A stretch of DNA of 21,006 nt from a virus. The translations under genes and the position numbers were made by a program. Below, piece by piece: positions 7,178 to 20,941 of this stretch (the stretch's first letter is position 1; each line of letters opens with the position of its first letter). The stretch spans positions 1 to 21,006 of the IMG/VR virus record IMGVR_UViG_3300021373_000540. One strand, given 5' to 3'. Below the pieces are notes generated by a model. It made no database searches, was not told where the DNA came from, and was given only the letters and a program-made list of their open reading frames with translations.

Positions 7178-10100
7178 TTAGTTAGATTCAAGTGTTGCGA
7201 CTCGTGCTTCCAAGTCTTCAATTTTAGTCATTGCTTCTTGCAAGGCTTTGACAGCCTTCATGTAAAGCACTGAGTAATTTACCTGTTTAGTGACTGTTCC
7301 CAAATCTTCTTTGGTTTCTGGGTCAATGTCTGGGCTTTCAAATACAAGACCGCCCATGCCAGCCGCTTCAACCTCTTGTGCGATCACACCAAGCATATTT
7401 GGTGCATCAAGGTTGTCGGCTTTCATGCTGTACTTGCGAACAGTCAGCGCCTTTATGTCTTCCCACTGAGAGCCGCTATCTACGATGTTTTCTTTTACCT
7501 TCTCGTCGGAAATAGCACCGTAGCTGTTATTAACATTAACGATATTGCCGTTGCTATAAATAATAAATTTAGTTACGGATAATCCCGTTGCCGCTAAAAA
7601 ATAATTAGTGGTGTTGTTTGGATCGGTATTCGTAAATCGAATTAGTGGACCATACGGCAGACTAGCGTTCGTATTGTCAATTAACATCGCATTTTGATTT
7701 GATGTTGGCGTCGAAAATATCCAGCTTGGATAGGTAGCGCCGCCATGATAGAAACCCCGTGGATTACCGTCACCGTCTGACAAGACGATGTTGTTGCTTG
7801 AGGTGCGGATGTCGAGGCCGCCTTGGTTGCCGTTGTAACGGCCAAGGATGGTGTTTTTAGCGCCTGTGGTTATTGCGCTACCTGCGCCTTGTCCAATAAC
7901 AGTACTGTGAGTTCCCGATGTGCTTTCGCCTAAAGCACCATAGCCGATTGCAACGTTATTGTTTCCAGTCGTACTAGCATCGAGAGTAAACGGACCTATA
8001 GCAACATTGTTTGTGCTTGTGTTGTTTCTTAAGGAGTCATAACCAATTGCTGTGTTGTAGTTTGTCGTAGTAGCGCTAATTAAAGCATTGCGTCCGATTG
8101 CAATATTTCCGCCACCCTCGGTCAGAGCTGTGCCAGTAGCACTTCCTATTGCAATGTTGTTAGAGCCTGTCGTTACTGCTCCAAGAGCGTTAATTCCAAA
8201 TGCATTATTGTGAGTTCCCGTTGTATTAGCATCTAACGCATTTGTTCCAACTGCAGTGTTGTTAGTACCTGTGGTGTTTGCAGTAAGCGCTTGATAACCA
8301 ACAGCAGTGAGGCTAGAGGCGGTCGTGTTTGAGTACAGGGCGCGATATCCCAAAGCTGTGCTGTTAGAGCCTGTGGTGTTAAAGCGAAGCGCCTCTGTGC
8401 CTAACCCAGTAAGATTCGCTCCAGTAGTGTTTGCATAACCTACATTAACACCAACGCCTGTATTGTTGTTGCCCGTTGATCCAGAGTAAAAACTCTGAGT
8501 ACCAATGGACGTAAAATTCGCGCCTGTAGAATTTCTAGCCGCCCTGTAACCTACAGCTGTCGTATTGACTTGCTCTGTTGCATTGCGAAGCGCATCATAA
8601 CCAACCGCGACATTTTGAGATCCGATAGTATTTGAGATCATCGCATCACGGCCAATCGCGGTGTTGTTGCCGCCGGTCGTTGTGCCGCCTAAAGATGCGT
8701 ATCCCAATGCCGTGTTGTTGCTCGCTGTCGTTATTAAATCACCGCTCTGATAACCTACAGCGGTGTTATTGGCTCCCGTAGTATTTGCGCTCAACGCTTG
8801 ATACCCGATCGCTACGTGTCCACCACCCGTCGTCGCCGCGTCTAACGCATAAGCTCCTACTGCCGTGCTGTTTGCGCCGGTTGTGTTTGACGCCATAGCG
8901 TTGTATCCAACCGCAGTGAGACTTGATGCTGTTGAGCTTGTACTAGAGAGCGTAAACAAGCCGACAGAAGTATTACCGGTGCCTGACGTGTGATACCGCA
9001 TAGCATCCGTACCAACGCCTAAGTTGTTTGACTCTGTTGTCGTGGCGGCCAATGCACGACGCCCTAACGCAACTATATTACTGCCGGTCGTAACTGCCCC
9101 ACCTGCGCTTCTACCTAAAGCCGTGTTTGCCGCGCCCGTGGTGCTTGAAGCAAGGGCGTTATGGCCTATTGCCGTATTTTCGCTGGCTGTCGTACTTTCA
9201 GTTAATGCGCTAGTACCAACAGCAACGTTGTAATTTCCGGTAGTGTTCGCATCAAGAGATAGAGCGCCTATTGCGATATTGCTTGAACCTGTGGTGTTTG
9301 CGTTACCAGCGTAATGGCCTAAGAACGCATTGTTAAATCCGGTGGTGTTATAGCGCCCAGACTGCCAGCCTACCGAGGTATTCGCACTACCTGTTGTTGT
9401 AGCGTACAGCGCGACATTACCGATTGCGGTGTTAGATCCAGTGGTGTTGCTATACAAAGCCTGTGTGCCAACAGCTGTTGATTGCGTTCCAGTCGTTGTA
9501 TATCTTGCGGCCTGTGCGCCTATAGCGGTTAATCCATAAACTGCACCAGTTGCGGCATATCCAGCTTGATAACCAACTGCTGTTTGATAGCTTGCATCTG
9601 TAGATGTTCTGAGGGCGTCTCGTCCAATAGCTATATTGTAGTCGCCCGAAGTTGATGAATAGAGGGCTGTACGCCCAACAGCGACAGTGCTAGTTGCGGA
9701 TGTAGCAGAGTACAGGGCTTGATTGCCAACAGCGACGTTACTATCTTCGTCGTTGTTGTAACCAGCTTGATAGCCAACGTAGACGTTAGAACCTTGATCT
9801 GTATTGCTGTAACCGGCTTCAAAACCTAAAGCCGTGTTGTATGAGCCAGTAGTCGTTGAGCGTAAGGTATTCCCGCCAACGCCCACGTTTCCAGTAGCAG
9901 TAGTAGAGGTAAATAACGAAAGATAGCCTATAGCAGTATTACTGTTTGTCGTGTTGTTGGTAAGAGCTTGATAGCCAACAGCTGTTGTATAACTACCTGT
10001 GCCAAGTGCATCACCAGCCAAACCGCCAATAACTACGTTCGCAGTGCCGGTACTTATTTGACTACCAGCGTTGTAACCAATGGCTACGTTGTAAGTATTT

Positions 10101-11581
10101 CCAGCAGACGCAGGATTTGCGGCCAACATACTATTCTGACCGATTGCTACGTTGCGAGATCCAATAGTGTTAGCACCTAAAGCATCGTTACCGATTGCTA
10201 CGTTTCCACTAGCCGTTGTGTTCGCATCAAGCGCTCGATAACCAAGAGCAGTATTTGAAGTACCTGTAGTGTTCGCGCCTAGCGCCCCATATCCTACAGC
10301 GGTGGTATTTGAGCCGGTCGTGTTTGCATCAAAAGTCGTGGCACCAACAGCGACGTTAAGTTGTCCTGTGGTGTTTAGCGCTAAAGCATCATAGCCCATA
10401 GCCACATTGTTAGAGCCAGTTGTGTTTAGCAGTAGAGCATCATTTCCAACGGCAGTGTTGGCAGTACCTGTTGTATTGCTATATAGCGCCTTTTTACCGA
10501 ATGCCTGTATTGTGCCAGTCGTATTGCTGTACCCAGCCTGATAACCAACTGCCGTGTTGTTTGAGGCGGTGGTGTTTGAGAAAAGCGCTGACGCACCTAT
10601 TCCAGTATTATAATTTCCAGTTGTATTTGACTTGAGCGCCTTGTCGCCAAATGCACTGTCATAACCGCCAGCCGTTGAATTCAGCATCGCCTCAAAGCCC
10701 ACGGCTGTGTGGTTAGATCCTGTCTGATTAGCGCCTAGCGCACTTTTACCTACTACCGTATTTGAATTACCCGTCGTGTTCGCATCTAAAGCAAAAGCAC
10801 CAATCGCAATGTTATTGACGCCAGTTGTGCTTGAAAGCAGTGCGTTGTAACCAACAGCAGTGTTGTTTGATGCCGTTGTGTTAGAACCAAGAGCGTCATA
10901 GCCGACAGCGGTATTATTTGAGGCTGTAGTTTGATCATTAAGCGCTCTGTTACCTAAAGCCGTGTTGTAGCTTCCGGTAGTTGCTACCGCCAGAGATGAA
11001 AAACCAAGTGCAGTGTTTCTTGTTCCGGTAGTTATATTGCCACCAGCACCAGAACCGATGCCCGTGTTTTCGCCGCCAGTTGTAATGTCCAGCAAAGAAT
11101 TGTTGCCTAGCGCGACGTTACCAAGGCTGTCCTTATTGCCGTCTAACGTGATTGTGCCGCCGTCTACTGACAGGTTGCCTGCGACGGTAAGGCCGTCCGT
11201 TACAGCAGTACCCGTAATGTCGACGCCTGTGGAGGTGGTGGCTAGTTTGGCTGAGTTGTCGTTGAAAAGCGTTACTGCGCCATCTTGGTCTGCGGAAATG
11301 TAGTTTTCACCAGAAGCAGATTTAAGACGAAGATTTGTAGCCTCAATAAATAAATGACCAGTACCGTTTTCTTCTATGTAGCTTCCTGTGCCTGAGTGAT
11401 AAATCAGTAGGTCTGAGCCAGCACCGAAGATAGCCTTGTCGTTGTCACCGAATGACAAGTCACCCGTCATGCTGTCGCCAGACGTTTCTACCTTGTCGCT
11501 GTTCAGGTTGGTGAAGTTAGCATCCACCTCGTTGTTAGTGAGAGGCGAACCCTTCCCAGAGCGTGTTGTAATCGTAGTCAT
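7178..11581 (-). CDS. Giant tail fibre with about 65 tandem 17-residue repeats and S74 intramolecular chaperone
   Basis: The 1467-residue protein starts with a phage-fibre N-terminus (KGSPLTNNEVDANFTNLN at about 10-27), then a beta-rich region with SGDSMTGDLSF and VDITGTAVTDGLTV (to about 150). Residues 155 to about 1258 are about 65 units of consensus NTAVGYxALxxNTTGxN, most exactly 17 residues long, like the head repeats of trimeric adhesins (YadA/Hia type), so a long trimeric beta-roll is likely. The C-terminal part has GAISDEKVKENI with the expected self-cleavage serine near S1358, then the Peptidase_S74 chaperone (about 110 residues) ending in a coiled coil (ALQEAMTKIEDLEARVATLE). The chaperone drives trimer folding and is then cut off. 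AAGAGGT precedes the ATG. Confidence 0.92.
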   Translation of the reverse strand: MTTITTRSGKGSPLTNNEVDANFTNLNSDKVETSGDSMTGDLSFGDNDKAIFGAGSDLLIYHSGTGSYIEENGTGHLFIEATNLRLKSASGENYISADQDGAVTLFNDNSAKLATTSTGVDITGTAVTDGLTVAGNLSVDGGTITLDGNKDSLGNVALGNNSLLDITTGGENTGIGSGAGGNITTGTRNTALGFSSLAVATTGSYNTALGNRALNDQTTASNNTAVGYDALGSNTTASNNTAVGYNALLSSTTGVNNIAIGAFALDANTTGNSNTVVGKSALGANQTGSNHTAVGFEAMLNSTAGGYDSAFGDKALKSNTTGNYNTGIGASALFSNTTASNNTAVGYQAGYSNTTGTIQAFGKKALYSNTTGTANTAVGNDALLLNTTGSNNVAMGYDALALNTTGQLNVAVGATTFDANTTGSNTTAVGYGALGANTTGTSNTALGYRALDANTTASGNVAIGNDALGANTIGSRNVAIGQNSMLAANPASAGNTYNVAIGYNAGSQISTGTANVVIGGLAGDALGTGSYTTAVGYQALTNNTTNSNTAIGYLSLFTSTTATGNVGVGGNTLRSTTTGSYNTALGFEAGYSNTDQGSNVYVGYQAGYNNDEDSNVAVGNQALYSATSATSTVAVGRTALYSSTSGDYNIAIGRDALRTSTDASYQTAVGYQAGYAATGAVYGLTAIGAQAARYTTTGTQSTAVGTQALYSNTTGSNTAIGNVALYATTTGSANTSVGWQSGRYNTTGFNNAFLGHYAGNANTTGSSNIAIGALSLDANTTGNYNVAVGTSALTESTTASENTAIGHNALASSTTGAANTALGRSAGGAVTTGSNIVALGRRALAATTTESNNLGVGTDAMRYHTSGTGNTSVGLFTLSSTSSTASSLTAVGYNAMASNTTGANSTAVGAYALDAATTGGGHVAIGYQALSANTTGANNTAVGYQSGDLITTASNNTALGYASLGGTTTGGNNTAIGRDAMISNTIGSQNVAVGYDALRNATEQVNTTAVGYRAARNSTGANFTSIGTQSFYSGSTGNNNTGVGVNVGYANTTGANLTGLGTEALRFNTTGSNSTALGYRALYSNTTASSLTAVGYQALTANTTGTNNTAVGTNALDANTTGTHNNAFGINALGAVTTGSNNIAIGSATGTALTEGGGNIAIGRNALISATTTNYNTAIGYDSLRNNTSTNNVAIGPFTLDASTTGNNNVAIGYGALGESTSGTHSTVIGQGAGSAITTGAKNTILGRYNGNQGGLDIRTSSNNIVLSDGDGNPRGFYHGGATYPSWIFSTPTSNQNAMLIDNTNASLPYGPLIRFTNTDPNNTTNYFLAATGLSVTKFIIYSNGNIVNVNNSYGAISDEKVKENIVDSGSQWEDIKALTVRKYSMKADNLDAPNMLGVIAQEVEAAGMGGLVFESPDIDPETKEDLGTVTKQVNYSVLYMKAVKALQEAMTKIEDLEARVATLESN
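7819..11119 (-). repeat. About 65 tandem 51-base coding repeats in the fibre gene
   Basis: The period is 51 bases (17 codons), visible on the + strand as recurring blocks of the form CCTGTGGTGTTTGC followed by GC, ATA-CC and AACAGC elements. Individual copies differ at many synonymous sites, so amino acid identity is much stronger than base identity. A few units depart from 17 residues: several have 16, and one (ending ANPASAGNTY) has 21. Confidence 0.9.
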
Positions 11582-11599: not shown

Positions 11600-12046
11600 T
11601 TAGGATGCTGTTAAAGTGATAGTCCAGTTGACAGTCAGCGTATCGTCAGCCGCTTTGTTCACTACACTAAACACAGTACGGCAGAGCATAGTTCCGCCAG
11701 AGGAAGCATTGAAGATACCTGCCTCAGTCACCGCACCAGTTGCGTCACCAGCCTCAAATGAAGAGACGTAAACAATCTGGTTGTTAGTAACCGTGGAAGA
11801 GTCTAATACTTCGCGTGAGCCAAGCTGTGATCCCAAGGTAGTATCGCCAGCCGCCGCCGCAGTAGAGCCAGAACCCAGCGCCATGTGCGTCATAGCTGTC
11901 TCGTCATCCTTCATGCGGTCACAGATAAAGTTAAGTCCCGTGTCCACAATCAGGTTCTCGATAAGGCGCTCATCTTTGATGTTGCCGTCCTTGTCACGAA
12001 GAACCAGTGCGACATCGCCTCGTAGTTTCAATCCATCGTTCATCAT
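11600..12046 (-). CDS. Virion structural protein, tail-fibre/baseplate associated (putative)
   Basis: The 148-residue protein has an N-terminal strand-rich part (LRGDVALVLRDKDGNIKDER), then HMALGSGSTAAAAGDTTLGS and the C-terminal pattern VTEAGIFNASSGGTMLCRTV followed by LTVNWTITLTAS. This pattern (about 148-180 residues ending in TVxWTxTL) is common in phage proteins near fibres, where it is probably a beta-sandwich structural component. The ATG at 12046 lies in an ATGATG pair overlapping the upstream TGA, with GAGGA seven bases before. The fibre gene follows after 18 bases. Confidence 0.7.
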   Translation of the reverse strand: MMNDGLKLRGDVALVLRDKDGNIKDERLIENLIVDTGLNFICDRMKDDETAMTHMALGSGSTAAAAGDTTLGSQLGSREVLDSSTVTNNQIVYVSSFEAGDATGAVTEAGIFNASSGGTMLCRTVFSVVNKAADDTLTVNWTITLTAS

Positions 12047-13110
12047 GTAAATGTCCTCGATGCGCCGACATAGTCTTCGGCAAAGTAAGTGAAGTCACAA
12101 TAACCCTGACTTCTTAGGCTACCCGAACTCGAAGCGGAAGGTGCTTCAGTAACGAATTTACCTCCCGATTTTACCTCCGAATCAGCAAATACGCCATCGT
12201 CAGACTTGACAGAACCGAAGTCTATCGTGTCTGTGTCAGTCGTCCCTGCTAAATCAGTAAAGTCTCTGAGGTATACAACGGTACGAGAGAATGAGTCTGA
12301 TGCAGTGCCGCTATCTGATGCTGGTCTGCCGACTACCTTAGCTGGGCTATCGTTGGCCGCTGGTGTCTCGCTAAAGTTCCGTACAAATGCGACATCCCTA
12401 TCGAACACGTCAGTTATAGCAACGATCTCTGTGCGTGTCTTAACAAACGCAATCTCTTGATCGTCCTCGATCGACGCCTCGCCATCGACGTCATCAGTGG
12501 CAAAGATCTGCTCTGAGACATTTTTGACGTACGTAAACTCTTCTTCGTCACCTAAGAATATGCGGTCTAGTCTGTCGCCGACGGTGTAATCCTCTAGGAA
12601 GTAGGTCACATCACAGTAGTCTTGAGCCGTATCGCCGCCTACATCCTTAGTAACATCGAGTGTGTCATTGTCAGTAAAGGCTGAGGCGTCTGCTACTACT
12701 TTGCCAGGTTGTAGTGTTGCGTCCTCTGCAACAGAGCCAGAATCAGTAAGCGGCTTAGTCTGATCAAAGGCATGAGCGTCAGTAAATGCAGGTTGTTCTG
12801 TTAGCGCTTTTACGATCGCTAGAACATCATCATCGCTAATAGATCCAGCGTCTGATGTATTCTTCACTACGTCTAATGTGTCATTGTCTGAGCCAGAAGG
12901 TGACTCCGACAGATTCTTTGTTACGTCGAGCGTGTCGTTATCTGTGGAAGAGACGTTATCGGATATAAGGAAGATTCGCAGGAATAAGCCAAGCACAACC
13001 TCTGCTTGCAAGCGCACTGCTTGAGCTGAGGCGACAAGAGCCTTGCCAGTAGCTTCTGCTACTAGCCTAGAGGCGCTAAACGCATTCCTTAGAAACGAAT
13101 CTATTCTCAC
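12043..13110 (-). CDS. Acidic 18-residue-repeat protein, probable tail/fibre component
   Basis: The 355-residue protein has a helical, Ala-rich N-terminus with a hydrophobic stretch (VVLGLFLRIFLI, about 38-49). About ten units of roughly 18 residues follow, of the form (S/T)DNDTLDVTKNLSESPSG, rich in Asp, Ser and Thr. A second motif, YCD(V/F)TYF(L/A)EDY, appears near 164-174 and again near 336-346 at the C-terminus. The start is GTG at 13110, overlapping the upstream stop as GTGA. Nothing in it suggests catalysis. Position between a BppU-N-like adaptor and the fibre suggests a structural linker or spacer; the very low pI may imply cation binding. I recognise no named family. Confidence 0.75.
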   Translation of the reverse strand: MRIDSFLRNAFSASRLVAEATGKALVASAQAVRLQAEVVLGLFLRIFLISDNVSSTDNDTLDVTKNLSESPSGSDNDTLDVVKNTSDAGSISDDDVLAIVKALTEQPAFTDAHAFDQTKPLTDSGSVAEDATLQPGKVVADASAFTDNDTLDVTKDVGGDTAQDYCDVTYFLEDYTVGDRLDRIFLGDEEEFTYVKNVSEQIFATDDVDGEASIEDDQEIAFVKTRTEIVAITDVFDRDVAFVRNFSETPAANDSPAKVVGRPASDSGTASDSFSRTVVYLRDFTDLAGTTDTDTIDFGSVKSDDGVFADSEVKSGGKFVTEAPSASSSGSLRSQGYCDFTYFAEDYVGASRTFT

Positions 13111-13459: not shown

Positions 13460-13660
13460 TCACGAGGGCTTCGTCGGCCATACGATATCTGACTTATCGG
13501 TTGCCGATGCGTAGGTTGTGGGCAGATCACGTAAGGCTGTTCGATAATTTATCCACTCTGTGCGCTTGGCATCTGTTAAACCATTATCGCCAAGTTGCGT
13601 CCAATCACTATGCGATAAAAGCACGTTGCGTTTTCGACGTATTTTGTCCCAATCCATCAT
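13460..13660 (-). CDS. Phage_tail_APC-like protein (tail assembly chaperone family)
   Basis: From the ATG at 13660 the protein has 66 residues and carries the family pattern almost end to end: WDKIRRKRNVLLSHSDWTQL, LTDAKRTEWINYRTALRDLP and finally VWPTKP. This is the Phage_tail_APC family (PF16778). The frame extends nine codons further upstream, but the downstream ATG overlaps the gpJ-like stop as ATGA and has GGGGAT at good spacing. Its location after the tip protein rather than before the tape measure suggests it serves the tip or fibres, not tail-tube assembly. Confidence 0.85.
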   Translation of the reverse strand: MMDWDKIRRKRNVLLSHSDWTQLGDNGLTDAKRTEWINYRTALRDLPTTYASATDKSDIVWPTKPS

Positions 13661-16600
13661 CGTATCCCCACGACGATAATGTCGCATTTAGTGACCGTAA
13701 TTCTATCTTGCGAAACTTGCCCATCAAAATTTGTAACACTGCCTTTTACATAAAAATACTTAGCGGCTGTAATTGCCGTGTCAAAAAATCCAATCATTTC
13801 GGCGGTGTGTTTTGCATAGGCGACAGAGGTATCACCTAAAGAATGATGGGTGTAATAGTAACTAGCGATCTGGCCCAGATAGCCACTAGCTTGATCACTG
13901 ACGAAAAAATTAACTTCTGGCAAATCGCCACCATCATCATCCCAGTTACTAGAACCGATGATATTCCACTCCATCTTAACGATGACTAGAGGCTTATGGC
14001 CGACAGTCGTATCATCTGGTGCGGGTAATTGAACGCTATCAATCTGTGTCAAGCTGTCAGCGGGAGAAAGACTCACAGAACTCGCCAGCGTGCTAGTTAC
14101 GTTTTCATTTACTCCGCCGAGCAACTTGTCAAAGCTAATCGTCCCCGCACTAATCTTCGCCGCAGTGACGGCGTTCGCGGCAAGCTCATCAGTGCTTATA
14201 GCACCCGCCGCAATCTGTCCTGCGGTGATTGTATTAGCCGCTATTTCATTAGCTGTGACTGCGCCAGCCGCAAGCTCATTTGTTGTAATTGCACCAGAAG
14301 CTATCTCATTCGATGAAATAGTATCTGCGGCAATCTGTGCCGCCGTTACCGTATTTGCCGCAATCTCGTCAGCTGTGACAGCGCCAGCGGCAATTGCGGC
14401 TGTAGTGATTGCGCCAGCGGCTATTTCATCAGCAGATATAGCACCTGTAGCTATCTCATTTGCAGTAATAGTATCAGCGGCAATCTCGGTGGCTGTTACA
14501 GCGCCTGCGGCAATTTCTGTTGCTGTGATAGTGTTAGCGGCTATTTCTCCCGCTGTGATAGCGCCAGCGGCTATTTTTGCTGTGCTAATCGCATCATCTG
14601 CGATGGTTGTTGTCGTTATTGCGCCAGCGGCAATGACATCAGATGTAATAGCATCAACAGCAATCTTGGCGTTCGTGATCGCGTCATCATCAATTTGCGA
14701 TGAGCCGACTGTGCTTAATTGCGCTAACGCACCAGCATCAGTGACGTAACTGAGATCAATATCGTCTAAAGCCGAGAGCGCACCTGAGTCGCTTACCTCG
14801 GCCAAACTTATTGCCTTAGTCCATTCTGAGCCGTTATAGCGATAGAGATTGTTGTCTGTCGTTAAAAACGCCATGTCGCCTTGGTTGGCTGTTGAAGGCA
14901 AGGTTGAAACAACTTGAACGGGCTGAATGCCAGATGCAAAAGCCGCAATGTCTACAGCACCAGTTGCAATTTGATCTGAGCCAACGGCATCGTCGGCAAT
15001 CTGATCTGAGCCAACAGCATCATTAGCGATCTGATCACTGCCAACTGCATCATCAGCAATCTGATCTGAGCCAACAGCATTATCATCGATCTGACCATCA
15101 CCGACCGTATCCTGATTGGCTAAATCACCCAGTGCACCTCGTGTTGCATTGACTGTGCTTGTATCGCTGTCTGGGTTTCTATCTGAGACCGCGTCGGTGC
15201 CCGTGCCCGTAGGGAAACGCCGCGCCCTGACCCAGTAATATCGCTCATCTCCGTCCGCGATAGGATCAACGCCATTAGAAGCATCGTGTAGGAACTGCGT
15301 ACCAAGTGTCTCACCCACTTTGACTGCGTTAGACCAACTTGAATTGGGCGACGCAAACACCTCAATCGATATGATGTGCGTCATGTTGGTCGGATTAGTC
15401 CAATCCAGTTCGATGCCTTCGACAAGCGCTGTAGCACTCAGATTCTGCGGATCAGGAACACCGAAGAAACCCTCTGCTATACCGCCGCTAGGAGTAACCG
15501 TGGAATAGCTCCCAACAGCCAGATCCGCATAGGATGCAGAGTCGTCTTCACGCAGAATGACATTAACGCCACCAGCGCCTGATTCGGACAAGTTCCATCC
15601 GAGGCACACGAATGTTTTGTTGGTGTAATTAAACTCCGAAAGTGTGACACTTACTCGATCACCTACAGCAATATTGACACCAGCCAAGTTAGTAGGGAAT
15701 GTGAGTACCTTCTGCAAGTCGCTCTGCTGGATCAACTTATGGGATATACGCTGAGCCATGTAGAAGCTGTTAGTCATGCTTAGCTTCAGCTCGCTACGTA
15801 GTTCTTCATTGTTGTCACGAGTCAGTGCACTTGTAATCTGTACCTTCGGAAACTCCATTTCCTTGTAATTGTTACTAGGATCGATGAAGGTTCCAGTGAT
15901 TGTGTTGAATCGCTCGTTACGCTCGAATGACGTCTTGAGCTTTGCAGGGCCAGTAAGATGGTCATCGTTCAGAGTCATGCCTGACGCGACCGCCTCGAAT
16001 GCACCTGCTCGTATGACGAACTTGCCATTCGTGTAAGTCAGCATACCGTTCATAGACGACAGCAACTTATTGATGTTTGCTTTGTGAGTTGCCGTGCCAA
16101 AAACGACACCGTTACACGTGAAGCGCTTTTCTTGTTGGCTGTTAGGTATGTCAACCAAGGTGTCACAGATGTCTGCCGCATCTACTGCCTTAGCAAGGTC
16201 GATGCGACTCAAGTCTATGTTCATCCCAAAATAATCATCCGTGAGATAGTCAACCAGACACCAGACTGGGTTCTCTGACCATTCCCATGTTGTAGAGTCG
16301 CTTGCTCGCTGTGTTGCTACACCAACAGACGCATCGTAGTACGTGCTAGTGCTATCCTGCCGTGGATCATAGATCTTCTTACCTTTAACCAAAGCCTTGA
16401 TGTTTTGAGGTAGGTACTTATCCCATATCTCTTGGCTGTCATCCGTTAGCGTGAACTTGGTGACGATATAAGTAAGATTCGTGCCGATGTGCTCATTCGT
16501 ATTGATAGTGCCAAAAGCCGCATTAAGAACGCTATCAGCCGTTGTCTGAGTGCCTAAGAGCTTTCTAATGGTACAGATAGTCACACTACTTTGCGGGCCA

Positions 16601-17019
16601 AACGTACCCGCTGTAACCTGACCATTAGCCGCAATCTGAGCGTTGGTTATGACCTTGTCATCGAAGTGAATGTCAGTGATCGCAGTCGATTGATGACCCG
16701 CAAGGACGATAGCGTGATACAAGTCCCTGTTCTCGTCCCCTGCAACGCCTACAAACGATATTGGACCAGATACCAGTGCCTCGCCATAGATGAGCTTTTG
16801 CGGCTCTACAGTGCCTCGTACGGTCGCCTGACGCGAGCTATCACTATCTAGGTTAGGTACACCATAAATATTATCTATGAGCTTTTTAGCTACTACGGCT
16901 CCTGCAACGACTGTTGCGGCACCAATTACGGCAAGTGCAGTCGGGCCATAAGTGCCTACGACACCAATAGTCTTGACTACAAACATACCGATAGCGGCTA
17001 GGGTCTGTGGCATATCCAA
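13657..17019 (-). CDS. gpJ-like central tail tip / host specificity protein with decapeptide repeats
   Basis: The 1120-residue protein starts with hydrophobic stretches (about 8-45). The hub part (about 50-500) has RGTVEPQKLIYGEALVSGP, WCLVDYLTDDYFGMNIDL and KANINKLLSSMNGMLTYTNG, matching the tip-attachment regions of lambda gpJ-type proteins. A fibronectin III-like domain follows at about 521-610 (NLSATALVEGIELDWTNP). Two blocks of decapeptide repeats come next: about five (DDAVGSDQIA) at about 636-690 and about nineteen (AAGAITAxEI) at about 775-963, separated by a short module containing NNLYRYNGSEWTKAI. The last 145 residues look like a beta-rich tip domain. It is the tip's central hub and probably touches the host receptor. 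Confidence 0.85.
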   Translation of the reverse strand: MDMPQTLAAIGMFVVKTIGVVGTYGPTALAVIGAATVVAGAVVAKKLIDNIYGVPNLDSDSSRQATVRGTVEPQKLIYGEALVSGPISFVGVAGDENRDLYHAIVLAGHQSTAITDIHFDDKVITNAQIAANGQVTAGTFGPQSSVTICTIRKLLGTQTTADSVLNAAFGTINTNEHIGTNLTYIVTKFTLTDDSQEIWDKYLPQNIKALVKGKKIYDPRQDSTSTYYDASVGVATQRASDSTTWEWSENPVWCLVDYLTDDYFGMNIDLSRIDLAKAVDAADICDTLVDIPNSQQEKRFTCNGVVFGTATHKANINKLLSSMNGMLTYTNGKFVIRAGAFEAVASGMTLNDDHLTGPAKLKTSFERNERFNTITGTFIDPSNNYKEMEFPKVQITSALTRDNNEELRSELKLSMTNSFYMAQRISHKLIQQSDLQKVLTFPTNLAGVNIAVGDRVSVTLSEFNYTNKTFVCLGWNLSESGAGGVNVILREDDSASYADLAVGSYSTVTPSGGIAEGFFGVPDPQNLSATALVEGIELDWTNPTNMTHIISIEVFASPNSSWSNAVKVGETLGTQFLHDASNGVDPIADGDERYYWVRARRFPTGTGTDAVSDRNPDSDTSTVNATRGALGDLANQDTVGDGQIDDNAVGSDQIADDAVGSDQIANDAVGSDQIADDAVGSDQIATGAVDIAAFASGIQPVQVVSTLPSTANQGDMAFLTTDNNLYRYNGSEWTKAISLAEVSDSGALSALDDIDLSYVTDAGALAQLSTVGSSQIDDDAITNAKIAVDAITSDVIAAGAITTTTIADDAISTAKIAAGAITAGEIAANTITATEIAAGAVTATEIAADTITANEIATGAISADEIAAGAITTAAIAAGAVTADEIAANTVTAAQIAADTISSNEIASGAITTNELAAGAVTANEIAANTITAGQIAAGAISTDELAANAVTAAKISAGTISFDKLLGGVNENVTSTLASSVSLSPADSLTQIDSVQLPAPDDTTVGHKPLVIVKMEWNIIGSSNWDDDGGDLPEVNFFVSDQASGYLGQIASYYYTHHSLGDTSVAYAKHTAEMIGFFDTAITAAKYFYVKGSVTNFDGQVSQDRITVTKCDIIVVGIR
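14130..14700 (-). repeat. About nineteen tandem 30-base coding repeats in the tip protein gene
   Basis: Each unit encodes ten residues of the form AAGAITAxEI. Copies differ at many positions but keep a strict 30-base period. The second and third codon positions make an open frame on the other strand as well (14090-14749), which is a by-product of the repeat. Confidence 0.85.
14960..15110 (-). repeat. About five near-identical 30-base repeats in the tip protein gene
   Basis: On the + strand ATCTGATCTGAGCCAACAGC recurs with a 30-base period (14973, 15001, 15031 and 15061 regions), encoding GSDQIADDAV units. These copies are much more alike at base level than the longer block at 14130-14700, which suggests recent duplication. 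Confidence 0.85.
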
Positions 17020-17426: not shown

Positions 17427-18027
17427 TGTTCCGCGAACCGACTCCAAGGTTTCCGCTATTCGTGTCTTTCCACAAAATCTTCACGCCATCGATTTCGTGC
17501 AGATACTCGAAGAACAGGTCGTTAGAGTCGACGCGCTGTTGTTGCACATGCGTGTACTTGAGATTAGCTGACCGATCGATTTTAGCCAGCTCGGATTCAC
17601 ACGTAAGGCTGATAGAATTGTTGCTCTGGGTGCCAGTGACAAGCGTCATGACATCCATAAACCCAGACCATATCAGGTTAGGATCTTCGATTAGCGCCTC
17701 ATCCTCATCGAGCAAGCCTATATAGATATCGACATCTCTCATGAAGTAATCTTCTGTTCCCGCTGTTCCTATATCAGCGATCGTCGAATCTAAGCCTGAT
17801 AAGGTCAACGTGATGCTATATGGTGATATGTCTGTTCCTTCCTCGATAGAAGAGACAGAGCCGAAATCACCGACACCAAGCCAATCATTTCCGCCCCATG
17901 TGAAGGTGCCGATGCTGTCATGCACGTAAAGAGTTGAGCTAGAGAAATCTAACTTGGCGAACGTGACAGGCCGTACGACATCATCCTTGAGCGCGTTGAC
18001 TATGGCTGTAGATAATCCTCTGCTCAC
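17371..18027 (-). CDS. Tail tip/baseplate hub protein, DUF2163-like
   Basis: The 218-residue protein begins SRGLSTAIVNALKDDVVRPV, then KLDFSSSTLYVHDSIGTFTW and the GNDWLGVGDFGSVSSIEEG stretch, followed by ISPYSITLTLSGLDSTI. This order (LS-AL, F-S-TLYVH-G-TW, G-GSVS-IEE) is that of phage hub proteins related to DUF2163, which sit at the distal tail. It precedes the NlpC-like and gpJ-like genes, as in lambda-like tails (M-L-K-J order). Start is GTG at 18027, overlapping the upstream stop as GTGA. The C-terminal tail (PPRDDRDDERGQGPRR) is low-complexity and overlaps the next gene's start in another frame. Confidence 0.7.
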   Translation of the reverse strand: MSRGLSTAIVNALKDDVVRPVTFAKLDFSSSTLYVHDSIGTFTWGGNDWLGVGDFGSVSSIEEGTDISPYSITLTLSGLDSTIADIGTAGTEDYFMRDVDIYIGLLDEDEALIEDPNLIWSGFMDVMTLVTGTQSNNSISLTCESELAKIDRSANLKYTHVQQQRVDSNDLFFEYLHEIDGVKILWKDTNSGNLGVGSRNNGPPRDDRDDERGQGPRR

Positions 18028-18626
18028 GCTAGAACGTCCTCTATAGCCTCAATCGTAATCGAGCTTATGTACTTGGACTCGGTGTTCCAGCGAGGATTGT
18101 TGATCATCATGAACACACCAAACGGGTTAAAGATCTGAACAGCATCGTTGTTTTCTGTCGCCTTGCGGATATTAGGCGCTATGTCTACAGTCAAAGAGCC
18201 TGTGCCGTCCGAACTCGCATCGGCTGTGACCATGTGAAGCTCGTTGTTAAACGATATGTAGTCACCAGCCTTAAAGAAGTCAGTCACGTTAGCAGTAGCA
18301 CCGTCCAGATCTATCTGATAACCAGTCTGACCTGCACCATCTACTAAGACTGACTGCGGTGACGTCGCCGCGCCATTACGTACGCGACCATAATCCTCAA
18401 GGCGCATCCGATGTGTTTGACCATCTAACTTAGCGATGAACGCTTGCATCTCTGCTCTGTCACTCCCAGACAAGTTCCGAAACGTCATGCGCGTCCTCCA
18501 GTACGATCCTTTACGCTGGAGCGTCTGTACCGCCCCGCTTACTGGACTCTGGAATTGGCTCGTATTAGTCACAAGCTCAAATGTCTGACTCGTAGGAGTA
18601 ATAGATGGGAAGTTATACGTAGCCAT
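18024..18626 (-). CDS. Distal tail/minor tail protein
   Basis: The 200-residue protein reads FPSITPTSQTFELVTNTSQF, GAVQTLQRKGSYWRTRMTF, then RNLSGSDRAEMQAFIAKLDG and HRMRLEDYGR. This pattern (strand-rich with a helix and a final -RMRL-D-) is seen in phage distal tail proteins directly after the tape measure. The C-terminal half has beta-rich repeats (YQIDLDGATANVTDFFKAGD) and ends in EAIEDVLA. ATG at 18626 overlaps the tape measure stop as TAATG. It probably forms the ring or hub linking tail tube and tip. Confidence 0.7.
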   Translation of the reverse strand: MATYNFPSITPTSQTFELVTNTSQFQSPVSGAVQTLQRKGSYWRTRMTFRNLSGSDRAEMQAFIAKLDGQTHRMRLEDYGRVRNGAATSPQSVLVDGAGQTGYQIDLDGATANVTDFFKAGDYISFNNELHMVTADASSDGTGSLTVDIAPNIRKATENNDAVQIFNPFGVFMMINNPRWNTESKYISSITIEAIEDVLA

Positions 18627-20941
18627 TACATTCTACCTCTACGCATCATGTTATGTACTTGCTCTACAGTCTGACGAGAGGACTCAGAAACCGCCATAGC
18701 GATACGCTGATCTACATCACCGTCACCTGATGCATCGATGTTGTTGATGATCGTGATGTCCTGACCGCCGCCCCTAGTGTTGTCAATAACAGTCTCGTTA
18801 GGGTGAAGCATTGCCAAGAATCCGCCTTTACCATCCATGCCACCAGATCTTGCGCCAGAGCCAGTGAAGCCACCACCTTCAAATGTAGGTATCGCCGCCG
18901 CCTTAGCTACAGCCATCGTCGTAGTAAGTGCCGCCTGAGCACCCACTGCGTTACCACCTGCTGTCGCTAATGACACAAGTGCCGCCGCAGGAGCTGACGC
19001 CGCCGCAATAGCTGTCATAGCCGCCGCATTAGCCGCTACGGATGCGGATAGACTTCCTGCTTCTATATTCTTAGAGATAATCGCTTGCTTGGCCTTCTCA
19101 ATGCCCATCTGAACGATGCTCTTGATAAGCTCGTCCATGATCGCGCGACCCAGCATACGCATTGCTTCTGTGCCGTTAGCCGCGCCAGTGATAAATGCAT
19201 GGGATGCGTTTGTGATCGCGTTTTCTACGTTTTGCAGTCCGCCGATAATCTTGAGTTGCTGATCAAGCATGTGCTCAGCTTTCTGCTCTTCGAGCATCAT
19301 TGAGTATCTAGTCAACTCTTCCTGACTAATGGCATCTGCCGCTCTCGCCGCTTCTAGCGCCGCCTGACGTCGAACAAGATTATTAATAAACGACTCAGTC
19401 TCGGTAGCAAAGCTATCGATAGCCTCACTACGTAGCCGCTGATAGTTAGCGACATGATCCCTAACTTCTTTGAATCTGAGCTGTTTGATAGCCTCAAATC
19501 GCTTGGTCTCGATTGCGACCTCAGTATCTGCAAGCATCTGAGCCAGCTCTGCTCTACCATCAGCCGCCTTTCTAGCTCTGTCTAGCTCAGCGTCATAGCG
19601 CTTGTTAATCTTATCTACGTCTGTGACATCGCTTCTTTGTAGCGCCTCAAGAGTAGAGATAGCGCGCTTCTCAGCATCTACCTTAGCTTGCGCCACCTTA
19701 GCGTCTCTTGCCGCTTTAGCCGCCGCTCTATCTTTTTCTCGTTGCTCTCTTTCAGCGTCATTTGCATCCAGTTCTGCAATAGCATCAGTCTGCGCTTGAT
19801 TAATTTGACGATACATTTCAAGGAAGCGTGCACTCCCCATTTGACCTGCCATCGTAAAGTTTTTTACGAGTGACTCTCGCAAATCATTATAGTCAGCTTG
19901 AATTTGTTCGCGCTTATTCATCAACTCTCGCGCAATCTCTTCTATTCCCCGCTTCCCCTCTGCGATTTCCTCTGGCTCAAAAGCTAATGGGCCTTTCGCC
20001 TCACCATCACCACGCAAAGCCTCTTGTAACGCAATGATGCGATTAACTAACTCTGGTCGAGTAGCATCCTCTACAGAGCCACCAAGATTCTCTATCTCAG
20101 CAACTAATGAATTGAATTGGGCTAAATTGGCTTCTACTGCTTCTGTCTGCTCTTCAAACGCTCTAGTTGCTTTTGCTACAGCGGCGGCATGAAGAATTTG
20201 AGCTTGCATGGGGTTTTGCCCCCTCTGAAGCTGTATTTCCTGCCTAGATATTTTTAGACTCTTTTCAGCAGTTGCTACTTGATCTTCCATTGAGTCGACG
20301 AGGTTATCTAAATCACCTCGCGCTTTACCTAATTCTGCTTGACGCAAGCCTTCCAAGGCGGCGCTAATTGATCGTGCCGCCGCATCACTTGTAGGCACCA
20401 AATCCTCAAGTGTGCTACGTAATTCATCAAACTTATTTTCTGCGGTCTCTACATTTCTGAACGCGGTAAATGCCGCCGCACCTACAGCAAGGAATGCACC
20501 AACTACTGCACCACCAGATCCCATGAGAGAAGCAATCTGACCACCCTGCTGACCCAAGACGATCATAGCGTCAGTGCCGCCTTGCAACTGTACCGCAACG
20601 TCCTGCACCTGATGGCCCAGCTGACCAAAACCACCACGAACTAGGCGCAAAGAACCATTCAATCCTTTGCTAGACGCAATCTTCTTCTTTTCAAGAGCGA
20701 TAAGATTTTGTAACTCTTTAGCTTCTTTTATTTGTGCTTCTGTAGCTTTTGATTGTCGGAGGCGATAGATCTGAAGCTCATCAGCCGTCATTCCGATGGT
20801 ATTCTTGTAATCCTCCATCCGCTTGAGAGTATCTTTGACAGACTTTTCGAGCTTCTTTTGATTCCGCGCGGCAGAGTCGAAGGCTTGCTTCGTTTCATCT
20901 TCTGCGCGGATTTCTATTACGAGCGGCTCTGTGTTTGCCAT
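18626..20941 (-). CDS. Tail length tape measure protein
   Basis: The 771-residue protein has coiled-coil regions (about 15-90, 200-340 and 380-560, for example KDRAAAKAARDAKVAQAKVD), a hydrophobic helix near 142-160 (GAVVGAFLAVGAAAFTAF), and an Ala-rich stretch near 630-680. GGMDGKGGFLAMLHPNETVI at about 698-717 is the C-terminal motif of lambda gpH-type tape measure proteins. The length would correspond to a tail of roughly 110-120 nm by the usual 0.15 nm per residue rule. It sits right after a T-like gene and before tip genes, the standard order. The ATG at 20941 has AGAGGCAAGAGAAAG upstream and overlaps the preceding gene by 47 bases. Confidence 0.92.
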   Translation of the reverse strand: MANTEPLVIEIRAEDETKQAFDSAARNQKKLEKSVKDTLKRMEDYKNTIGMTADELQIYRLRQSKATEAQIKEAKELQNLIALEKKKIASSKGLNGSLRLVRGGFGQLGHQVQDVAVQLQGGTDAMIVLGQQGGQIASLMGSGGAVVGAFLAVGAAAFTAFRNVETAENKFDELRSTLEDLVPTSDAAARSISAALEGLRQAELGKARGDLDNLVDSMEDQVATAEKSLKISRQEIQLQRGQNPMQAQILHAAAVAKATRAFEEQTEAVEANLAQFNSLVAEIENLGGSVEDATRPELVNRIIALQEALRGDGEAKGPLAFEPEEIAEGKRGIEEIARELMNKREQIQADYNDLRESLVKNFTMAGQMGSARFLEMYRQINQAQTDAIAELDANDAEREQREKDRAAAKAARDAKVAQAKVDAEKRAISTLEALQRSDVTDVDKINKRYDAELDRARKAADGRAELAQMLADTEVAIETKRFEAIKQLRFKEVRDHVANYQRLRSEAIDSFATETESFINNLVRRQAALEAARAADAISQEELTRYSMMLEEQKAEHMLDQQLKIIGGLQNVENAITNASHAFITGAANGTEAMRMLGRAIMDELIKSIVQMGIEKAKQAIISKNIEAGSLSASVAANAAAMTAIAAASAPAAALVSLATAGGNAVGAQAALTTTMAVAKAAAIPTFEGGGFTGSGARSGGMDGKGGFLAMLHPNETVIDNTRGGGQDITIINNIDASGDGDVDQRIAMAVSESSRQTVEQVHNMMRRGRM

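Follow-up and report, generated by a model that had tools for sequence, protein, structure and literature searches.

The tail operon and the fibre gene

The DNA studied here, which we will call the window, is a viral fragment of 21,006 bp, record IMGVR_UViG_3300021373_000540 of IMG/VR. It comes from an uncultured tailed virus of bacteria, probably a marine one. The genes described below are all found in the minus strand. In order of transcription they start with a tape measure protein of 771 aa (18626–20941, phrog_1538) and the distal tail protein Dit (18024–18626, phrog_1302), followed by further tail proteins and by a J-like central tail fibre or tail tip protein (13657–17019, phrog_5616 and phrog_31). 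After some small proteins we find an Asp/Ser-rich repetitive protein of 355 aa (12043–13110), a small gp80-like protein of 148 aa (11600–12046, phrog_5417) and the tail fibre gene (7178–11581). Genes for an endolysin and a replication initiator come after it. This block of genes is a siphovirus tail-tip operon, and the fibre gene is located among its tail-tip genes, as is required of a siphovirus tail fibre. The gene is intact, with an ATG start and a single open frame of 1467 aa which has no internal stops, and it matches PHROG tail and virion families with E values down to 1e-177. The initial annotation had already called it a tail fibre, in agreement with the operon and with these families.

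Two other proteins of the operon are also repetitive. In its C-terminal half (14210–15094) the J-like protein has numerous repeats of 10 residues (type TAxEIAAGAIT), which appear in the DNA as tandem repeats of 30 bp. The 355-aa protein, upstream of the gp80-like gene, has degenerate repeats SDNDTLDVxKNxSExP. It gave no match in the phage collection; it is found in 51 of the 52 related viral contigs which contain the fibre anchor and at least 1 kb upstream of it.

The fibre protein starts with a conserved N-terminal anchor, MTTITTRSGKGSPLTNNEVDANFTNLNSDK, in residues 1–34 (11480–11581). Residues 35–154 (11120–11479) form a shoulder, which is beta-rich in the AlphaFold2 model (pLDDT mostly 75–90 in residues 31–140). 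Residues 155–1242 (7856–11119) are the repeat array. An end cap and a variable tip domain, recognized by alignment, are found in residues 1243–1357 (7511–7855), with pLDDT values below 50 in most of them. The cap has the motif NTILGRYNGNQGGLDIRTSSNNIVLSDGDGNPR, common to its relatives, and the variable domain is a candidate receptor-binding tip. The chain is closed by a Peptidase_S74 domain, an intramolecular chaperone, in residues 1358–1467 (7181–7510), which ends in a long helix of the coiled-coil type.

The S74 family of Pfam (PF13884) matches residues 1358–1407 with 28.5 bits, above the cut-off of 22. Ser1358 (codon 7508–7510) and Lys1363 (codon 7493–7495), which lies at +5 from the serine, are invariant in 16 aligned proteins. 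They are equivalent to the catalytic dyads S587-K592 of MyRF and S911-K916 of endoNF (PMC8326128). The predicted fold of the domain can be superposed on 7dc3 (MyRF) with Z 9.2 over 107 residues, rmsd 2.9 and 27% identity; for 3gw6 (endoNF) and 3gud (the chaperone of phi29 gp12) Z is 7.8–7.9. From its sequence the domain is predicted to cleave itself just before Ser1358, leaving a fibre of 1357 residues. A self-cleaving chaperone had been proposed in the initial annotation: the domain and its dyad are there, and the cleavage is a prediction.

The repeat array and its variation among relatives

The units of the array were located as non-overlapping matches to an iterated 17-column profile. There are 64 coils with the consensus NTAVGYxALxxNTTGxN; the profile, the periodicity and a two-strand coil in the AlphaFold2 model all define them. 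Their spacing is 17 aa in 54 cases, 16 in six and 18 in two; the only unit with 21 residues is found in residues 477–497 (10091–10153). A degenerate start of a 65th unit, NTILGRYNGNQ (residue 1243), caps the array. The count of about 65 units, mostly of 17 residues, given in the initial annotation becomes 64 units plus this degenerate start; it had also described the 16- and 21-residue units, while the two units with 18 residues had escaped it. Gly is found at position 5 in all 64 units and Thr13, Ala8 and Ala3 are nearly invariant; positions 6, 7 and 10 are the most variable. Identity at a lag of 17 residues is 0.395, to be compared with 0.110 ± 0.009 in shuffled sequences, and shuffles of the whole protein give a mean of 3.3 units and a maximum of 8. 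The array is not a product of chance. It was also suggested that its Thr/Asn faces might bind ice or ordered water layers. The features of the units give this no support: the two threonines are part of the NTTG turn, the consensus has no TxT strand motif, and few columns are as conserved as those of Thr, which is what a structural ladder would lead one to expect.

When the units are compared with each other, synonymous sites are saturated (mean pS 0.75) and non-synonymous sites are held (pN 0.45), so that the array appears to be old and kept by selection, not freshly slipped. A recent expansion by slippage is ruled out by this saturation, by the mean nucleotide identity between units (47%) and by the presence of only 2 pairs with pS below 0.3 among the 2016 pairs of units. 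In the window array no lag clearly stands out as a higher-order super-repeat. A related array, L010:6189-9128, contains duplicated blocks of 720 bp which are 83% identical; this points to growth in whole blocks and not unit by unit.

The length of the rod can be estimated from BpaC, in which 42 layers measure about 20 nm and a solved piece of 20 layers measures 89.5 Å (PMC9543794). With its rise of 0.45–0.48 nm per layer, 64 coils would give about 29–31 nm, a rod close to 30 nm. The array is a stout rod and not a giant fibre, as it had first been named. Some relatives are much longer: the comparison of copy number proposed in the initial annotation gives from 9 to 119 detected units, in some cases in arrays clipped by the end of the contig. 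The longest array, with 119 detected units, belongs to a fibre of 3213 aa (L007:709-10347) which has the same N-terminal anchor and an S74 domain. Neither is the closure by S74 unusual, as had been thought: S74 is found in 16 of the 25 array proteins scanned, the window fibre included, and a published figure of pelagiphage fibres shows YadA-like as well as S74 domains (Mizuno et al. 2014, PMC3909814). Similar arrays, several of them with S74, are also found in bacterial metagenome-assembled genomes, among them bins of Competibacteraceae, Spartobacteria and Chitinophaga.

The anchor is found in 59 viral contigs with a mean identity of 85% and a lowest value of 74%; these contigs were obtained in searches with the window proteins and the count describes that set. 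The gp80-like gene lies directly upstream of the anchor in all 54 contigs in which it could be checked, with a median gap of 17 nt. No prophage copy of the anchored fibre appeared among the six loci found in sequenced bacteria. The rest of the fibre is exchanged. The shoulder is swapped or missing in relatives, as seen by comparison with contigs L002, L022 and L084. Contig L022 has a gp80-like protein 99% identical and no array. Contig L002 has 60 units and a different C-terminal domain; its orthology with the window array unit by unit is weak (score 47.8, against a permuted mean of 26.8 with SD 6.0, and at least one of 200 permutations is higher). The combination of a conserved anchor, a constant upstream gene and an exchanged distal part indicates a modular attachment fibre. 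Its anchor would dock the fibre on the tail and the gp80-like protein is likely to be its adaptor.

These variations raise the question of what the array does. Its main role may be that of a passive spacer which determines by its length how far the tip, the sole receptor binder, extends; such a role, compatible with either of the folds discussed in the next section, has in our opinion a reasonable chance of being true, somewhat below even. The range of 9 to 119 copies, with the consensus positions maintained, and the exchange of tip and C-terminal domains are what one would expect of a spacer. On the other hand, in some relatives S74 follows the array almost immediately and there is no tip domain, so that in them the array would have to carry any binding. 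The high variability of unit positions 6, 7 and 10 does not fit well with a passive role either, nor does the case of phage S-TIM4, in which a structural protein with a YadA domain acquired mutations during host adaptation (PMC6224464).

The fold of the repeat

The initial annotation described the repeats as adhesin-like, and a comparison of profiles supports it. When a profile of three 17-residue units is aligned by hhalign with a viral 14-residue YadA-like profile, the probability is 89% and the score 27.3, against 10.5 or less in 60 column-permuted controls, with an insertion of 3 residues per coil; both sets were chosen by a shared anchor pattern, which favours similarity around the Gly. 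The Pfam family YadA_head (PF05658) gives at best 15.9 bits (E 5.9e-4, taken as one genome), below its cut-off of 25 bits. The YadA head has 14–15 residues per layer and our array has 17, in some units 16. For both reasons we call the array YadA-like and do not consider it a member of PF05658. The YadA membrane anchor (PF03895) and stalk (PF05662) gave no Pfam match in the window fibre, and a scan of the fibre with NCBIfam gave none either.

Coils of different length are found together in other proteins. Contig L127 encodes one protein with 17-residue and one with 14-residue units. A trimeric autotransporter of Brevundimonas (L135:5842-11673), in which YadA_head, YadA_stalk and YadA_anchor are all above the Pfam cut-off, has a head in which blocks of 14-residue coils alternate with blocks of 16-residue coils along a single chain; its 16-residue blocks score well above shuffles with the profile of the window. 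In the arrays of two IMG/VR contigs, L128 and L129, the units have 16 residues (AVAIGxnAGxttQGan) and are intermediate in length between those of YadA heads and those of the window fibre. The sequence comparisons support that the array is related to the 14-residue coil of the YadA head. Since coils of 14 and 16 residues in one chain are expected to have the same handedness, a YadA-type roll is favoured for the array, which would be trimeric.

A different fold is suggested by structure prediction. The AlphaFold2 monomer model shows a regular coil of two strands, the solenoid on which the initial annotation had staked its interpretation, and its pLDDT is about 80–95 over most of the modelled array. 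The array model gives long VIA alignments, about 280 residues at about 3 Å with Z 16–18, to right-handed beta-helices, and its handedness is taken from these matches and not from the geometry of the model. Foldseek found no PDB structure at E ≤ 0.001. YadA rolls were not among the candidates of Foldseek or VIA, and their absence is no evidence against a YadA roll. The three chains of the array might accordingly be right-handed beta-solenoids with a coil of 17 residues, forming a slim version of tailspikes such as P22 and phi29 gp12, in the same fibre and with the same S74 processing. It is also true that phi29 gp12 has such a helix and that the S74 domain of the window is related to the gp12 chaperone (3gud). 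We consider this fold rather unlikely: the motif and the profiles resemble YadA head coils, the Brevundimonas protein combines 14- and 16-residue coils in one trimeric autotransporter chain, and AlphaFold2 is biased on repeats, for which it can give confident solenoids that are not real (PMC11795689). We would give slightly less credit to a fold without any solved example, in which a trimer of thin right-handed or new solenoids has, in the course of evolution, been exchanged with the left-handed YadA roll coil for coil.

A search of PDB sequences with the whole fibre or with the array profile gave nothing relevant to the array; for the profile this is weak evidence, since its alignment spreads 102 residues over 204 columns and its register is poor. 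With no relative of the array among PDB sequences, one solved structure would be enough to establish how the repeat folds.

The array is not an assembly artefact either. Assemblies often break or join at repeats, and two related contigs (L020 and L031) terminate within their arrays, but a fusion of several genes or contigs, the chimera feared in the initial annotation, is extremely improbable in a gene which has one open frame and has relatives built in the same way. No exact direct repeat in the array DNA exceeds 18 nt, and a second, independent contig (L004) is 99.4% identical over 5,990 bp, which include the last 249 or so residues of the fibre and the downstream genes; collapse, chimerism and misassembly are therefore unlikely.

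Proposed mechanism and comparison with known systems

The reading which we prefer, and which we consider probable as a whole, is that of a siphovirus side tail fibre with a docked anchor, a YadA-type trimeric rod, a tip and self-cleavage by S74. The fibre would be attached to the tail tip through residues 1–34, probably with the small gp80-like protein as intermediary. Its 64 coils would form a stiff homotrimeric rod of about 30 nm, each coil being a layer of a left-handed beta-roll as in the YadA head, with a loop 3 residues longer than in the classical coil of 14. The rod would end in the cap and the variable tip, which probably touches the host surface. The coiled coil of S74 may trimerise the chains and drive folding from the C-terminal end; the domain would then excise itself before Ser1358, with Lys1363 as the base.

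If the rod is of this type, the fibre suggests that adhesin rods are not bound to one coil length. What can be tested is whether their rolls form a series: classical YadA heads have 14 residues per coil, some viral arrays and one trimeric autotransporter 16, and the window fibre 17, with the additional residues falling in one loop. Many fibres of marine phages, and some proteins of bacteria, have repeats of this kind. A literature search by the repeat motif found no relevant paper among the results listed.

The head roll of YadA and BpaC shares with the array the motif [NS][TV]A[VI]Gxx[AS], the invariant Gly and the tandem layers; units rich in Thr and Asn are also found in BpaC. The array differs by its 17 residues per layer, against 14 in the YadA head, and by the lack of a YadA stalk or anchor. 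The S74 chaperones of endoNF, phi29 gp12 and MyRF have the same Ser with Lys at +5, the GxIAQE motif, a C-terminal helix of the coiled-coil type and a matching fold. In those proteins S74 comes after an enzyme or a DNA-binding domain, whereas in the window it comes after a YadA-like array and a short tip.

Another comparison is with the YadA/S74 fibres of marine phages. ORF108 of S-TIM4 (2235 aa) is a protein with a YadA domain described as structural (PMC6224464), and S-SZBM1_54 is a virion protein with a YadA domain detected by LC-MS (PMC9146016). Marine fibres of this kind have, like ours, a conserved N-terminus, a variable distal part and a YadA-type domain; they differ in belonging to another phage group, since the window is from a siphovirus, and in having another anchor. 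The explicit count of 17-residue units and the comparison of coil lengths are those of the present analysis. The Roseobacter phages CRP-1 (gp37) and CRP-7 (gp48) have 17-residue arrays with 24 and 23 units, respectively, and the S74 motif; gp37 of CRP-1 also has the cap motif of the window fibre. Both differ by another anchor and by their surroundings, where no siphovirus operon with J-like and Dit proteins is annotated. The window fibre, although large, is an ordinary representative of a type of marine phage fibre which is widespread.
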